Below are positions 45,475 to 53,510 of a DNA stretch of 64,000 bases, piece after piece (position 1 is the first letter of the stretch; each line of letters opens with the position of its first letter). The position numbers and the translations under genes were made by a program. The stretch covers positions 1-64,000 of the forward strand of contig CALVYK010000004.1 in NCBI GenBank assembly GCA_944372195.1. The letters are read 5' to 3'. The stretch comes from an uncultured Bacilli bacterium. GTDB taxonomy: Bacteria; Bacillota_I; Bacilli_A; RF39; UBA660. Below the pieces are notes generated by a model. It had not been told where the DNA came from, ran no database searches, and saw nothing but the letters and a program-made list of their open reading frames with translations.

Positions 45475-48400
45475 ATGCAAAGATATGCTATAGGACTAGA
45501 TTTAGGAATCAAAAATATTGGTTGGTCTATTTATGATTTAGATAATAATAATATCGCAAATTATGGAGTTAGAATTTTTAATGAAAGTAGTAATGCTAGC
45601 GATAGAAGAAGTTTTCGCGCTGGAAGAAGGCTAAGAAAAAGGAAAAAAAATCGTATTAAAGATATTAAAAAAATATTAAATCAAATTAATTTTCCGACTA
45701 CTAATACATTGGATACAAAAATGATTTATACAAGATGTAATGGTTTAAATAATCAAATATCTAAGCAGGATATTACAAATATTTTATTTTATTTTTGTAC
45801 TAATCGTGGATATATTCCGTTTGATGAAAATGATGACTCTAAAACAAAATTAGAATTTATTTCTTTAGATGGTAAATTTCCATGTGAATACTATAAAGAA
45901 ATGCTAAATGATATAAATAAATATCATAATATGAATAAATTAGTTTTAAACAAAGATAATTTAAGAGAAATTAATAAATTATTATCAGTACAAAAGAAAT
46001 ATTATTCTGAATTAACTGATGATGTAATATCTAATATAATTGGTATTATTTCTAGAAAAAGAAATTTTTGGGAAGGACCTGGTGGAGGTAAAAATTCAGT
46101 TATTACACCTTATGGTAGATTTAAATCAGAAAAAGATGTTGAAAATTATCTTGAAAATAAAGAAGTAAACCCTTACTATGAAGAATATTTATTTGAAGAT
46201 TTAATTGGAAATTGTGAAATTGAAATTAATGAAAAAAAAGCACCTATTCTTAATTACTATTCAGAAAAATTTAATGCCATTAATTTATTAATAAATATTT
46301 ATTTTGTTTGTGATAATTTATTAGGTGAATATTACAAAAAAGAAAAAGATATTTATAAATTAAATAAAAAAGGAATTGAAACTATATTAAATTATGCGTT
46401 AGAAAATAACGAAATGTCATTGAAAAATCTTATTAAAAAAGTTTTAAATATTGACTTTAATATTGTTAAAGGTTATAGTGATGAAGAATTAAAAATATTT
46501 GAACATTATATCTATATAAAAAAACAATTTATAAAATCAAATCATGATATAAGTTGGATGAGTAATATTCAGTTATATAATAAAATAGTTTATTATTTAA
46601 CTTTTACGCCAGGTATTTTAGAATTTACAAAATTTGTAAATAATAATTTAAATGAAGAATATAATTTTGACGATGATTTTTTTGAAATTTTTAAAGAAAT
46701 AAGAAGAAAAAGAATTAGTTATTTAAAATATCATAGACTATCTGAAAAAGTTTTAGTTAGATCAATTAATGATATGTTGGAGCACGAAGAAAATTTTTCT
46801 AAATTAAGAAGAAGTTTAAATTATGATAAACAAGCAATGGAATATTTTAAGAAAAATTATACTAATCAAACACGAGACTTGATTTTATTAGATCCAAAAC
46901 ATATTGATAATATCATTGCTTCACCACAAGTAAAAAAGACTTTAAGACAAGCAATAAAAATTATAAATGCTATTATTAAAGAAGAAAAAAGATATCCTGA
47001 AGTTATTGCTATTGAATCAACAAAAGAAGTTAATACGCAACTTCAACAAAAAAGTATTGCTAAATCTCAAAAAATTCAAAAAGATTTACGAGATGCTGCA
47101 ATTAAAGAACTTGGAGATATTAAAAATTATAAATTAATTGAAAAATATATGTTGTTTAAAGAGATAAATGGAATTTGTCCTTATTGTGGTAAACCATTAA
47201 CTAAAGATTTTACTTCATGGGATAATATTCATATTGATCATATTTTGCCAAGAAGTATTACTTTTGATAATTCATTCGAAAATAAAACTGCTTGTTGTCA
47301 CGATTGTAATGAACACAAAAAAAATTGTTCACCTTATGAATATTTAAAAGGAAAAAATCTATATGATGAATTTAAAAAAAGAATTGAAAATTTAAAAATA
47401 AGTGATGAAAAAAAAGAAAACTTTTTAAACGAAAACATTTTAAATAAATATAAAATTAGATTTTTTAATCGAAATTTAAGAGATACAGCTTATGCAACAA
47501 CAGAATTAATAAATCAAATTAATTTGCTAAATAATTATAATAGTAATGATAATATAATCAAAACATTTACAACATCTGGTAAAATCACTAGTGAAATAAG
47601 AAAAAAATATAATTTAGAAAAAAATAGGGATACACTATTTCATCATGCAGTAGATGCTTCAATTTTAACATCTATAATTAATACTGAATATGGGAAAATA
47701 ATATTAGAATCTCAAAATGATAGAAAATTTTGGATAAATAATGGTTATAATAAAATAAATAATATAAATGACATAATTGATAATATTGATATATCTAAAA
47801 ATATTGATGAAATTAGAACGATTGATGATGATAATATTAGAAAATCATTACAAGTTGATAAAACTTATCAAGGTGCATATGCAAATGCAAATTTATATAA
47901 AATTATTAAAAAAGAAGATAATTTTTATAAAATAGAACAAGTTGATATTTATAGTGATTTATTATTCGATGGTAAAAATAGTAATGGAATTGCTAAATTT
48001 GAAACTTTATTTGACGAAAATGATAAAAAAATGGTTTTATTATGTCAAGAAAAAGATTATAAATTATTTAAAAAATTAAAAAAAATTTATTATCAATATA
48101 AAGAAATTAAAGGAAATCCTTTTATAAATTATTTGATAGAAATAGGTGAATACAAAAAAGGCGGCATTGCAGGTGTTCATTATGGTATAAGACAAAGTGA
48201 TAAAAATTCGGCATTAGTTAAAACTTTAAGATATTATACACCAATTACAGATCCTTATTTGATTAATAAGAAAAGCATTAATAAAAAAGCTAAAACATAT
48301 ATAGGTTATAATAGTTTAACACAAGTATGTACTCAAATATTTTATGATGAAGAAAAGAAAAAATATGTTTTCTTACCAATTAATAAAATATGTGTTAAAA

Positions 48401-48678
48401 ATGGAAAAATTGATGAAAATAATGAATATTATAAAATGATTTATCAAAAAACAATAGGGGATAAAAAACTAAAATTTATAGATAATATATATTGTGGTGA
48501 TCGTGTTGATGTAGTTAAAAAAGATGGAACAATTATATCTGATTATTATAGTTGTTATCATAAAACAGCAAATTGCGGAATGCTAAAGAATGGAAAATAT
48601 ATTGCTTCTACTGATCAAGATATAATAATTTATGATGTAGATGTTTTAGGTAATAAAAAAAGAAGATTAAGGGATTGA
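45475..48678 (+). CDS. cas9: CRISPR-associated endonuclease Cas9 (compact, type II-A-like)
   Basis: A 1067-aa RNA-guided DNA nuclease. RuvC-I is IGLDLGIKNIGW with Asp9, the arginine-rich bridge helix lies at about 44-65 (RRSFRAGRRLRKRKK), RuvC-II is VIAIES with Glu514, HNH is at about 560-625 with Asp588/His589 in HIDHILPRS, and RuvC-III is FHHAVDAS with Asp727. The HNH is flanked by CPYC (568-571) and CCHDC (Cys608, Cys611), a possible zinc site. The C-terminal ~330 residues hold the wedge/PAM-interacting region. Size is like SaCas9 rather than SpCas9. All catalytic residues are present. The PAM cannot be read from this sequence. Confidence 0.97.
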   Translation: MQRYAIGLDLGIKNIGWSIYDLDNNNIANYGVRIFNESSNASDRRSFRAGRRLRKRKKNRIKDIKKILNQINFPTTNTLDTKMIYTRCNGLNNQISKQDITNILFYFCTNRGYIPFDENDDSKTKLEFISLDGKFPCEYYKEMLNDINKYHNMNKLVLNKDNLREINKLLSVQKKYYSELTDDVISNIIGIISRKRNFWEGPGGGKNSVITPYGRFKSEKDVENYLENKEVNPYYEEYLFEDLIGNCEIEINEKKAPILNYYSEKFNAINLLINIYFVCDNLLGEYYKKEKDIYKLNKKGIETILNYALENNEMSLKNLIKKVLNIDFNIVKGYSDEELKIFEHYIYIKKQFIKSNHDISWMSNIQLYNKIVYYLTFTPGILEFTKFVNNNLNEEYNFDDDFFEIFKEIRRKRISYLKYHRLSEKVLVRSINDMLEHEENFSKLRRSLNYDKQAMEYFKKNYTNQTRDLILLDPKHIDNIIASPQVKKTLRQAIKIINAIIKEEKRYPEVIAIESTKEVNTQLQQKSIAKSQKIQKDLRDAAIKELGDIKNYKLIEKYMLFKEINGICPYCGKPLTKDFTSWDNIHIDHILPRSITFDNSFENKTACCHDCNEHKKNCSPYEYLKGKNLYDEFKKRIENLKISDEKKENFLNENILNKYKIRFFNRNLRDTAYATTELINQINLLNNYNSNDNIIKTFTTSGKITSEIRKKYNLEKNRDTLFHHAVDASILTSIINTEYGKIILESQNDRKFWINNGYNKINNINDIIDNIDISKNIDEIRTIDDDNIRKSLQVDKTYQGAYANANLYKIIKKEDNFYKIEQVDIYSDLLFDGKNSNGIAKFETLFDENDKKMVLLCQEKDYKLFKKLKKIYYQYKEIKGNPFINYLIEIGEYKKGGIAGVHYGIRQSDKNSALVKTLRYYTPITDPYLINKKSINKKAKTYIGYNSLTQVCTQIFYDEEKKKYVFLPINKICVKNGKIDENNEYYKMIYQKTIGDKKLKFIDNIYCGDRVDVVKKDGTIISDYYSCYHKTANCGMLKNGKYIASTDQDIIIYDVDVLGNKKRRLRD

Positions 48679-48703
48679 CAAAAAATAATAATTACTGTAG
48701 AAT
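48675..48703 (+). promoter_or_regulatory. tracrRNA promoter at the cas9 stop
   Basis: TTGACA (48675-48680) overlaps the cas9 stop codon, followed by a 17-bp spacer and TAGAAT (48698-48703). The predicted start is near 48710, just before the first anti-repeat. Confidence 0.85.
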
Positions 48704-48709
48704 TATAAG

Positions 48710-48858
48710 TGAGTTTTATATTACTTGAATTTTACAGTATCCAAATAAGAAAACCTATATCTTATTTAAAAGTTTTATATTACTCAAATTTTACAGGGTT
48801 TCCTATTATTACTCTTTATGAGGAACCCGAGACCATGATATTATTCGTGGTCTTTTTT
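48710..48858 (+). ncRNA. tracrRNA with two tandem anti-repeats
   Basis: Anti-repeat 1 (48713-48742) pairs with 30 of 36 repeat bases with two G-U pairs and one mismatch, and AAAAC (48750-48754) can add the repeat's first five bases. Anti-repeat 2 (48772-48796) pairs with the last 25 repeat bases with one mismatch. The sequence after it can form the usual internal bulge and lower stem (TCCTA with TAGGA), a small nexus-like CTC/GAG hairpin near 48812-48822 and a terminator. A 7-bp hairpin AAATAAG/CTTATTT (48743-48767) separates the anti-repeats. Confidence 0.85.
48831..48858 (+). terminator. tracrRNA terminator
   Basis: GACCATGA (48831-48838) pairs with TCGTGGTC (48845-48852) with one G-U pair, followed by six T. 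The cas1 start codon comes only 6 bp later. An alternative hairpin GGGTTTCCT/AGGAACCC (48796-48828) lies just upstream. Confidence 0.9.
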
Positions 48859-48864
48859 ATTTAT

Positions 48865-49743
48865 ATGTCTTTTAGAACTATATTAATAGATAAACCGGCA
48901 AGGTTATATTTAGATTTAAATAATATTGTTGTACATTGTGAAGATAAGTATTGGATAAATTTAGATGAGATAAATACAATTATAATTGATGATTTAAGAT
49001 GTAATATAACATTAAAACTACTATCTTTATTATGTGAAAAAGGAATAAATGTTATAATCACAAATAATTCACATATGCCAGTCGGGTGTATAGAAACATT
49101 ATATAATCACTCTAGATCTTCTAAAAATATTAAAAATCAAATAAATTGGAAAAATGAATATAAAGTTAATTTGTGGACGATAATTGTAAAACAAAAAATT
49201 AAAAACCAAATCTATACTTTAATAAATCATGATAAAAAAGATAAAATTGAAATGTTGACAAATTTTTTTAACGATGTGAAATTAAATGATGTTACAAATA
49301 GAGAAGGTTTAACTAGTAGAGTTTATTTTAAAGAATTATTTGGTAATAATTTTAAAAGGTTTAATGAAGATATGATTAATTATTCTTTAAACTATAGTTA
49401 TCAAATCGTAAGAGCTAAAATAAGTCAAGAAATAGTTAGTTTGGGGTATATTACTGCTATAGGTATAAATCATCGAAGTGAATATAATCAATTTAATTTA
49501 TCTGATGATTTAATAGAAGTATATAGGCCTATAATTGATTATTATGTATATAAATTATTATTGGATTGCGAATGTTTTTCATCTAGTTTTAAAGAAAAAT
49601 TGGTAAATATTTTAAATGAAATAATAAAAATAGATGGAAAGGAATATAAAATACATAATAGTATAACTATTTATTTACAATCTGTTTTTACTTATTTATT
49701 AGTGGGAGATTTAACTAAATTAAAATTTCCAGAATTAAAATGA
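48865..49743 (+). CDS. cas1: CRISPR-associated integrase Cas1
   Basis: A 292-aa Cas1 integrase. The start at 48865 gives the normal N-terminus (MSFRTILIDKPARLYLDLNN). A GTG-started extension from 48709 would translate the tracrRNA and is rejected. Catalytic residues are Glu147 in REGLTSRVYF, His203 in INHRSEYNQF and the acidic segment LSDDLIEVYRPIID (214-225). There is no Shine-Dalgarno before the ATG, and the gene starts 6 bp after the tracrRNA terminator, so it relies on read-through. An in-frame ATG at 48835 is a weak alternative. Confidence 0.93.
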   Translation: MSFRTILIDKPARLYLDLNNIVVHCEDKYWINLDEINTIIIDDLRCNITLKLLSLLCEKGINVIITNNSHMPVGCIETLYNHSRSSKNIKNQINWKNEYKVNLWTIIVKQKIKNQIYTLINHDKKDKIEMLTNFFNDVKLNDVTNREGLTSRVYFKELFGNNFKRFNEDMINYSLNYSYQIVRAKISQEIVSLGYITAIGINHRSEYNQFNLSDDLIEVYRPIIDYYVYKLLLDCECFSSSFKEKLVNILNEIIKIDGKEYKIHNSITIYLQSVFTYLLVGDLTKLKFPELK

Positions 49744-50081
49744 ATTTATATAGGCAAATGAGAATAATTTTAATTTATGATCTTCCTACTAATGAAAAAA
49801 TAGAGCAAAAAATTTATAATAAATTTCATAATGATATTAAGAAAATAGGCTTTTATATGCTTCAATATTCTGTTTATGTAAAAATAATTCAAAATGATAG
49901 TAATTTTAATCAAATTTATAATAAATTAGCTACTATAATTCCAGATATAGGGAATATTATCCTATTCAAGATAACTGAAAAACAATTTTCTGAATTAATA
50001 TATTTAAGAGGAGAAAAAAATAAATATGAAACAATAGTTGGTAATAATGAATTAGTGGTGTTTAGGAGTGATACTAATTAA
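49740..50081 (+). CDS. cas2: CRISPR-associated protein Cas2
   Basis: A 113-aa Cas2 with the type II pattern MRIILIYDLPTNEK (Asp14) and a second beta-strand region LQYSVYVKI. It forms the adaptation complex with Cas1. It overlaps cas1 as ATGA and the next gene by 14 bp, so cas1-cas2-csn2 are translationally coupled. Confidence 0.95.
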   Translation: MNLYRQMRIILIYDLPTNEKIEQKIYNKFHNDIKKIGFYMLQYSVYVKIIQNDSNFNQIYNKLATIIPDIGNIILFKITEKQFSELIYLRGEKNKYETIVGNNELVVFRSDTN

Positions 50082-50943
50082 AGAATTAATAATAAATAAT
50101 GAAAGCATATTAATTGATTTGTATAATAATTTAATTTATGAAAAATATACAGATATATTAAATTTGTATAAATATTTTGATGAATGCATAAATGAAAAAA
50201 ATAAAGATTTAAATGTAAAAATAGGAGATAAGAACATTAACAATAAAGATTATATATTATATAATTTTATGGATATACAAACTATTTTGGAAAGTATAAA
50301 ATATAAAAAGAATTCATTATTATTTGATTATTTAAATTCTTATTTACTAGATAACATTACTGATATCGATGATTTAAATGAATATGTGAAAAAATATTTC
50401 TTAAAGTATTTAAAAAATTGTAATATTGATTTAAATGTTAATTCTATTGACAATACTTTGAAGATCTTTTCAAATTGTTTGGAAATAATTCCAAATGTAG
50501 ATAATCCTATAGAAAAAATAAATTATATGTTAAAATACATTATTAATAATAATTTAAATAAAACGGTAATTATATTTTTAAATTCGGATAATTTTTATAT
50601 TCCTTATAATTTTGAAAATATCATATTTTTTGACATTTCTAAAAAAATTAATATAAATGACAATAATATTTTAATAACTGATAATTTTTATAAAAATTTA
50701 GATTTTCAAATTATTTTAGAATATTTAGAAATAAATTGGCCAATTCAATTTAACAAAGAATCTACTTTATATTGGTTAAAATATTATTTTATAAATTGTT
50801 TTTCATTGTCTAAAATTAAAATTACTAATGATGAATTATTGATAATTGCATTTTTATTAAAAAAAATGTATAAATTAAATCAAAATATTTATTATTCTAA
50901 TAAAATAAACGATATTATTAAATCTTTTATTGCCAATTTATAA
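50068..50943 (+). CDS. csn2: Divergent long Csn2-like adaptation protein
   Basis: A 291-aa protein in the csn2 position of a type II-A operon. Its N-terminal ~210 residues keep the Csn2 layout: IKELIINNESILIDLYNN at the start, a long helical insert, then VIIFLNSDNFYIPYNFENIIFFDISKK and NILITDNF, which align by eye with the Csn2 Walker-like core and its closing strand. About 80 further C-terminal residues (from YKNLDFQII) are absent from short Csn2 proteins such as that of S. pyogenes. The start is GTG at 50068, inside cas2. Its 3' end carries the -35 box of the array promoter. Confidence 0.75.
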   Translation: MILIKELIINNESILIDLYNNLIYEKYTDILNLYKYFDECINEKNKDLNVKIGDKNINNKDYILYNFMDIQTILESIKYKKNSLLFDYLNSYLLDNITDIDDLNEYVKKYFLKYLKNCNIDLNVNSIDNTLKIFSNCLEIIPNVDNPIEKINYMLKYIINNNLNKTVIIFLNSDNFYIPYNFENIIFFDISKKININDNNILITDNFYKNLDFQIILEYLEINWPIQFNKESTLYWLKYYFINCFSLSKIKITNDELLIIAFLLKKMYKLNQNIYYSNKINDIIKSFIANL

Positions 50944-50958
50944 TTATAATGGTATAAT
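50930..50958 (+). promoter_or_regulatory. CRISPR array promoter at the csn2 end
   Basis: TTGCCA (50930-50935), inside the end of csn2, a 17-bp spacer and TATAAT (50953-50958) place the transcription start near 50965, about 4 nt before the first repeat. Only 25 bp separate the csn2 stop from the array, so the leader is extremely short or extends into csn2. Confidence 0.75.
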
Positions 50959-50968
50959 CAATTTATAG

Positions 50969-53510
50969 GTTTTAGGATACTGTAAAATTTGAATAATATA
51001 AAACTCGTCATATTGATATTTTTCTGGATTATCTGTTTTAGGATACTGTAAAATTTGAATAATATAAAACGTTACTACTGTTTTTAAGACGTCTAATACT
51101 GTTTTAGGATACTGTAAAATTTGAATAATATAAAACAGGATATCCACTTGTTAAAAATTCTTTTTCGTTTTAGGATACTGTAAAATTTGAATAATATAAA
51201 ACCCCATATAGTGATGTGTGACAAGTGTCGTCGTTTTAGGATACTGTAAAATTTGAATAATATAAAACAATATAAATCCCTAAAATTAAAATTATATTGT
51301 TTTAGGATACTGTAAAATTTGAATAATATAAAACGAATGCAAATGATACACATAAGAAAAATTGGTTTTAGGATACTGTAAAATTTGAATAATATAAAAC
51401 TCTTTTGTTAAAAAAGAAACAGCAACTAATGTTTTAGGATACTGTAAAATTTGAATAATATAAAACAATTTCCTCCTATTAAAGTGATACATTGCCGTTT
51501 TAGGATACTGTAAAATTTGAATAATATAAAACTAGTATTTGAGATATTGTATTATTCAATGTGTTTTAGGATACTGTAAAATTTGAATAATATAAAACTA
51601 TTTTTTTTATAAGTTTTACTAACTCTATGTTTTAGGATACTGTAAAATTTGAATAATATAAAACTGCTTAAATATGGATAATGAAGAATTAAAAGTTTTA
51701 GGATACTGTAAAATTTGAATAATATAAAACACCTTGAGCGTCTGTTGTTAATCCAACACTGTTTTAGGATACTGTAAAATTTGAATAATATAAAACAAAA
51801 TCATAAATTTAAAAATAACAATGAATGTTTTAGGATACTGTAAAATTTGAATAATATAAAACAGAATATGGGCTGAATGCTAACCATAGATGGTTTTAGG
51901 ATACTGTAAAATTTGAATAATATAAAACATTAGAATATTCTTTTAAATACACTAATAGGTTTTAGGATACTGTAAAATTTGAATAATATAAAACATGTTC
52001 GTATAACCAACTATCACATATACAGTTTTAGGATACTGTAAAATTTGAATAATATAAAACTATTCATTACTTTATTATAAACATTTCCTGTTTTAGGATA
52101 CTGTAAAATTTGAATAATATAAAACTATAATAGATGGATAATCTTTATATGATATGTTTTAGGATACTGTAAAATTTGAATAATATAAAACATATTTATT
52201 AGTTAGTAATAATGCAGGTAGGTTTTAGGATACTGTAAAATTTGAATAATATAAAACTAATACTTCATGGGGTAGTCCAATTTGGTCGTTTTAGGATACT
52301 GTAAAATTTGAATAATATAAAACATTTCTCGTAATTCATATCCATCTTTTCTTGTTTTAGGATACTGTAAAATTTGAATAATATAAAACAACTATATTAT
52401 TATCATTTTCATAATTATAGTTTTAGGATACTGTAAAATTTGAATAATATAAAACTATAATAGATGGATAATCTTTATATGATATGTTTTAGGATACTGT
52501 AAAATTTGAATAATATAAAACTTCTGATAATTTATAGGTTAATGATGTTTCGTTTTAGGATACTGTAAAATTTGAATAATATAAAACCCTGTATAACTAT
52601 ACCATTGTCCTATATTCGTTTTAGGATACTGTAAAATTTGAATAATATAAAACATATTTATTAGTTAGTAATAATGCAGGTAGGTTTTAGGATACTGTAA
52701 AATTTGAATAATATAAAACTAATACTTCATGGGGTAGTCCAATTTGGTCGTTTTAGGATACTGTAAAATTTGAATAATATAAAACATTTCTCGTAATTCA
52801 TATCCATCTTTTCTTGTTTTAGGATACTGTAAAATTTGAATAATATAAAACAACTATATTATTATCATTTTCATAATTATAGTTTTAGGATACTGTAAAA
52901 TTTGAATAATATAAAACTAATTCGTTTAATTTCCTTTTTAATTCTGTGTTTTAGGATACTGTAAAATTTGAATAATATAAAACTCAACTATTTCGTTATA
53001 ATAATTATCTATTGTTTTAGGATACTGTAAAATTTGAATAATATAAAACTTTGCAATACTTTATAGAGAAAATATGACAGTTTTAGGATACTGTAAAATT
53101 TGAATAATATAAAACTGGAAAAAATGTATTCCAATCTTTATTTGAGTTTTAGGATACTGTAAAATTTGAATAATATAAAACTGGCTTTCATCTACTTCTC
53201 CAAAGTAAGCAGTTTTAGGATACTGTAAAATTTGAATAATATAAAACCTCCATGGTCTACGCACAACTTGATAAAAAGTTTTAGGATACTGTAAAATTTG
53301 AATAATATAAAACAACAAAAGTTTGAGAAGCATTAATGGTTGTGTTTTAGGATACTGTAAAATTTGAATAATATAAAACGATATTTGAAGTATATTACTA
53401 TCTATTCCGTTTTAGGATACTGTAAAATTTGAATAATATAAAACAAGCACGAATGTGTGTAAGGTAGTGTTCAAGTTTTAGGATACTGTAAAATTTGAAT
53501 AATGTAAAAC
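50969..53510 (+). CRISPR. Type II CRISPR array, 39 repeats and 38 spacers
   Basis: The 36-bp repeat starts GTTTTAGGATACTG and ends ATAATATAAAAC. Thirty-six spacers are 30 bp and two are 29 bp (52061-52089 and 53380-53408). Repeats are identical except the last (53475-53510), which has one change (AATAATG), marking the distal end. Orientation follows from the repeat start GTTTT, the promoter at the csn2 side and the degenerate terminal repeat. Spacers 18-22 recur as 23 and 26-29, so 33 spacers are distinct. Confidence 0.98.
52126..52881 (+). repeat. Duplicated spacer block inside the CRISPR array
   Basis: Spacer 18 (52126-52155) equals spacer 23 (52456-52485). Spacers 19, 20, 21, 22 (52192-52419) equal 26, 27, 28, 29 (52654-52881). 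Spacers 24 and 25 occur only in the second block. The order fits a tandem duplication of seven units followed by loss of two units from the leader-side copy. Confidence 0.9.

Follow-up and report, generated by a model that had tools for sequence, protein, structure and literature searches.

A type II CRISPR-Cas locus of an uncultured Bacilli bacterium with two tandem anti-repeats in its tracrRNA

The tracrRNA encoded between cas9 and cas1 in the window, by which we mean the whole 64,000-nt stretch of DNA analysed, carries two tandem anti-repeats (AR1 and AR2) in one predicted transcript. Judged from sequence, this layout is real, conserved and unusual, and we consider the structural claim firm. 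The usual description of a tracrRNA has one anti-repeat, and a literature search of open-licence papers returned no described case of two in one tracrRNA transcript. Tentatively, and at somewhat less than an even chance, we propose that this RNA masks itself: AR1 would hide AR2, pre-crRNA binding at AR1 would open the structure, and RNase III would remove AR1.

The window contains a complete type II locus on the forward strand, consisting of cas9 (45475–48678, 1067 aa; TIGR01865 with 411 bits, HNH_4), then, after about 185 nt, cas1 (48865–49743; TIGR03639, 261 bits), cas2 (49740–50081; TIGR01573), a gene for a 291-aa Csn2-like protein (50068–50943) and an array of 39 repeats of 36 nt with spacers of 29–30 nt (50969–53510). 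The Csn2-like protein has no match in Pfam or NCBIfam; in Foldseek the six highest-ranking matches are all Csn2-type structures, headed by Stu0660 of S. thermophilus, a long Csn2-like protein. With a best E-value of 2e-4, low TM-scores (0.33) and a model of moderate quality (pLDDT 69), these matches point to subtype II-A, short of proof. Only 25 nt (50944–50968), including a TATAAT word, separate the stop codon of this gene from the first repeat, so that the promoter of the array has to overlap with the end of the gene. Within the array (52126–52910), five spacers are present twice, a block of four again 462 bp away and a single one 330 bp away, pointing to recent rearrangement or internal duplication.

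Transcription of the tracrRNA is expected from a consensus promoter (TTGACA-17-TAGAAT, 11/12 positions; 48675–48703) overlapping the cas9 stop, as the preliminary description had recognised, and a promoter lies at the same place in a sister species and in relatives with a single anti-repeat. AR1 (30 nt, 48713–48742) begins a few nucleotides from the expected transcript start, the promoter being the one promoter-like site found. It is followed by a hairpin predicted by folding (48743–48767, AAAUAAGA...UCUUAUUU), for which 7 bp had been given and which in fact has 8 bp, by AR2 (25 nt, 48772–48796), by a nexus-like scaffold hairpin (48796–48828, GGGUUUCCUAUUAUUAC...GAGGAACCC) and by a Rho-independent terminator (48829–48858, with 10 pairs at 48829–48854), all on the plus strand; the last two had likewise been anticipated and are conserved in relatives. 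About 6 nt separate the T run of the terminator from the start codon of cas1 (48829–48867), so the cas1 ribosome site overlaps the terminator and expression of cas1-cas2-csn2 probably needs read-through; the junction is of similar tightness in relatives.

Against the reverse complement of the 36-nt repeat, AR1 matches at 27 of 30 positions, with two G-U pairs and a single A/C mismatch at the others, and AR2 matches at 24 of 25, with an A/C mismatch identical to that of AR1. These counts, the lengths and coordinates of both elements and their start-to-start offset of 59 nt agree with the preliminary description. Chance pairing is excluded, since the repeat-pairing scores of 42 (AR1) and 36 (AR2) compare with a maximum of 25 in shuffled sequences. 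The complementarity of AR1 runs 5 nt further than that of AR2 (CAGUAUCC against CAG), and AR1 is therefore not a plain copy of AR2. Elsewhere in the genome the AR1 core TTTTACAGTATCC occurs only in the array, in the opposite sense, and the hairpin between the anti-repeats is unique with up to three mismatches allowed. Sequence features of a type II tracrRNA are present: an anti-repeat (here two) to the local array, a cas9/cas1/cas2/array locus and, behind the anti-repeat, a hairpin and then a Rho-independent terminator. In Rfam, which covers few tracrRNAs, none of the families attained its gathering score. Read on the complement strand the region is repeat, 29 nt, repeat, and we also considered an antisense mini-array; we rejected it, as the minus strand of the region has no promoter-like site and conservation follows the plus-strand layout.

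This Cas9 occurs in two of the 18 genomes of the genus, that of the window and that of a sister species (locus L031), with 86 % identity between the proteins. The sister locus has both anti-repeats, the linker hairpin and the repeat in the same form, and AR1 is thus retained in the only congener found with the system, an outcome that had been set beforehand as a test of the two-copy layout; the layout is seen in these two species only, both represented by metagenome-type draft assemblies. Between them, two of the 30 AR1 positions and one of the 25 AR2 positions differ; the linker shows a gap of one base and no base substitution in its hairpin, the scaffold hairpin is identical, and base changes in the terminator keep its pairing. 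Four-fold sites of cas9 differ by 41 %, and simple arithmetic gives a chance of about 3 in 100,000 for two or fewer changes in 30 positions at this rate, four-fold sites being a rough neutral yardstick only in an A+T-rich genome. At both AR1 differences a G-U pair with the unchanged repeat stands in for a Watson-Crick pair, so pairing is kept, and the AR2 difference of the sister species breaks one pair with the repeat.

Ten relatives with Cas9 proteins of about 40 % identity (L032, L033, L034, L046, L047, L056, L057, L059, L060 and L061) have the same promoter place, scaffold and terminator and one anti-repeat each, which corresponds to AR2. All ten carry the motif UUCCUAUUAU(A/U)AC and a hairpin whose stem changes in pairs, as read by eye: GGGUU/AACCC in the window against GGUUU/AAACC in L059, and an inner stem of CUC/GAG in the window against CAC/GUG in L032 and L056. 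The motif adjoins AR2, not AR1. Since the junction of AR2 and scaffold is what the single-AR relatives share, AR2 would be the working copy, as had been suggested, and the view that AR2, the scaffold hairpin and the terminator represent the ancestral, Cas9-loaded tracrRNA is well supported by the comparison. As a side observation, cas9 of G039 is split over two frames at L034:9472–9490, by a frameshift or an assembly error.

In the Cas9 tree, the two species with two anti-repeats group together with full support on a long branch; the relatives next to them and the outgroups have a single anti-repeat, and throughout the wider Cas9 clade every relative with a readable tracr region has one anti-repeat. 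AR1 is hence most simply seen as a lineage-specific gain. The C opposite repeat position A25, shared by AR1 and AR2, had been correctly noted and had been read as evidence of an internal duplication; that reading is weakened, because the repeats of L033, L056, L059 and L060 have G at this position, so that the C is probably ancestral and the repeat has changed. The CAGUAUCC stretch of AR1, conversely, fits the repeat of this lineage (GGATACTG) and not that of most relatives (GGATCCTG). An AR2 copy that was later extended and an inverted copy of the repeat would both fit as the origin of AR1.

In the predicted fold of the free RNA, the first half of AR1 lies on the first half of AR2 with about 12 expected pairs, and the z-scores of the two two-AR tracrRNAs against shuffles are −2.6 and −3.4; this pairing is partly automatic because the repeat end is quasi-palindromic. 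The first half of AR1 appears to play the part of a 5' leader in both species. Among relatives of the same family, all seven cases tested have a 5' leader whose predicted fold places it on the distal half of the anti-repeat, with z of −2.5 or lower in five, the hairpins of L059 and L033 being not clearly better than shuffles; in members on the Acholeplasmataceae side the 5' hairpin stands beside the anti-repeat, not on it. Leaders vary in sequence, yet they pair with their own anti-repeat better than with those of others: across nine species, with the limits of leader and anti-repeat set by eye, the matched mean was −9.4 kcal/mol against −4.9 kcal/mol when permuted, a fraction of 0.0001 of permutations being as low, and for the relatives alone 5 of 5040 permutations were as low. 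The second half of AR1 is predicted to be unpaired in the free RNA, yet it is conserved and complementary to the repeat. Co-folding, which had been proposed as a check, lets the repeat pair with either anti-repeat and favours AR1, with computed binding energies for the full repeat of −29 kcal/mol (AR1 fragment) and −21 kcal/mol (AR2 region), and for its first 24 nt of −20 and −11 kcal/mol. Two repeats are predicted to bind one tracrRNA at once (−85.1 against −62.3 with one). All of these energies are for RNA alone, ignoring Cas9 and co-transcriptional folding.

A survey of 88 array-bearing type II loci, mostly from Bacilli and with an anti-repeat detected in 74, found tandem anti-repeats in a tracrRNA only in the window, in the sister species and in L093 of genome G422. 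The latter (L093:11560–11640, minus strand) belongs to the same bacterial family and lies upstream of an unrelated cas9; its anti-repeats abut with a period of 26 nt and are identical at 25 of 26 positions. Its leader has a sense-repeat-like arm predicted to fold on AR2 in the free RNA and on AR1 when crRNA occupies AR2. We regard this tandem as independent of that in the window, and it may also reflect an assembly slip or a recent duplication; no second genome with this tracrRNA was found among 244. One re-scan missed it, because isolated repeat copies outscored its anti-repeats, and such isolated, partly degraded single repeats are scattered around the locus outside the array (L093:2729–6770). 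Automatic tandem flags at L059, L087, L097 and L132 proved to be array remnants with a spacing of about 63–67 nt, and the candidate in L141 is one bulged anti-repeat. A pattern search in viral contigs gave one match, which was spurious, and a phage search gave one distant match only.

On the self-masking proposal, the helix of AR1 and AR2 would be this lineage's version of the hairpin between 5' leader and anti-repeat of the relatives, predicted to mask AR2 in the free RNA. Pre-crRNA would be expected to land first on AR1, as its second half, predicted to be single-stranded, is complementary to the repeat, and AR2 would thereby be freed for a repeat. RNase III may then cut off AR1 together with the bound pre-crRNA, leaving a mature tracrRNA headed by AR2, and an effect of AR1 on immunity could follow. 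If AR1 were a sensor or a processing handle, the tracrRNA itself would control the loading of Cas9, a form of control of which we know of no description and which, if true, would offer a natural model for gated guide RNAs.

Other readings were weighed as well. Possible, though on the doubtful side, is a switch opened by crRNA, in which a dedicated sensor anti-repeat would keep the working one closed as long as no pre-crRNA is bound, so that Cas9 is loaded in step with the supply of crRNA, and in which tandem designs would have arisen more than once. A decoy, with AR1 holding crRNA in a complex without the scaffold for Cas9 and so lowering active Cas9, would suit both the stronger predicted binding of AR1 and the conserved scaffold motif not following it. 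However, AR1 and AR2 sit on the same molecule at a fixed 1:1 ratio and can, by prediction, both be occupied, so titration of crRNA would be limited, and we judge a decoy unlikely. Just as unlikely appears a bivalent processing clamp, by which one tracrRNA would bind two adjacent repeats of pre-crRNA and aid RNase III, masking being incidental. The 29-nt linker nearly equals the 29–30-nt spacers, two repeats bind at once in silico, and the unrelated tandem of L093 would fit such a role, but the abutting anti-repeats of L093 with their 26-nt period show that this spacing is no general rule.

That AR1 serves only as one side of a 5' capping hairpin, with a complementarity to the repeat that is a relic of its origin, is quite improbable: relatives do retain a 5' hairpin of quite different sequence, but the second half of AR1 lies outside the hairpin and still differs at only 2 of 16 positions in the sister species, both times preserving the pair, and it fits the repeat of its own lineage. 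Very improbable is a weak internal promoter (TTTACA...TATATC) that would yield an AR2-only tracrRNA and place AR1 outside the functional RNA; such −35/−10-like words are visible by eye between the anti-repeats with 19-nt spacing and are kept in the sister species, but the scan for promoters detects the upstream site alone, placed where the relatives have theirs, and conservation of AR1 would then not be expected. Of the decoy, titration and switch roles put forward in the preliminary description, folding and comparison would favour a switch or a processing role.

With an ordinary type II tracrRNA, the RNA of the window shares the promoter, AR2, the scaffold hairpin, the terminator and the position between cas9 and cas1; the ordinary form is without a second, upstream anti-repeat, and AR1 has the longer complementarity to the repeat. 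Tools that choose the best-scoring anti-repeat would take AR1, probably the wrong choice for a single guide. The tracrRNA of L093 resembles that of the window in having two anti-repeats and a leader predicted to pair with one of them, and differs in its Cas9 and repeat, its place upstream of cas9 and its abutting anti-repeats. In S. pyogenes, transcription from a second promoter yields tracr-L, which works as a single guide directed at the cas promoter (PMC11417352, PMC8730458). The likeness to it, drawn in the preliminary description, is confined to an extension on the 5' side of the working anti-repeat, with a possible role in regulating Cas9, whereas the extension in the window is an antisense repeat behind one promoter. 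The single-guide reading was dropped, there being neither a sense-repeat segment nor a match to the cas9 promoter that is conserved: the promoter scan of the region found no second upstream promoter for a longer isoform, the longest guide match to the cas promoter in the window is 9–10 nt and A/T-rich, and none is common to both species, the sister species having a 13-nt, A/T-only match inside its tracr promoter spacer. Finally, in Cas13 arrays, leader-repeat hairpins are reported to limit RNA production (PMC13187072). There too, part of a CRISPR repeat element is covered by the fold of an RNA leader, with the difference that the Cas13 hairpins mask the crRNA side, whereas the fold predicted for the window would mask the anti-repeat of the tracrRNA.
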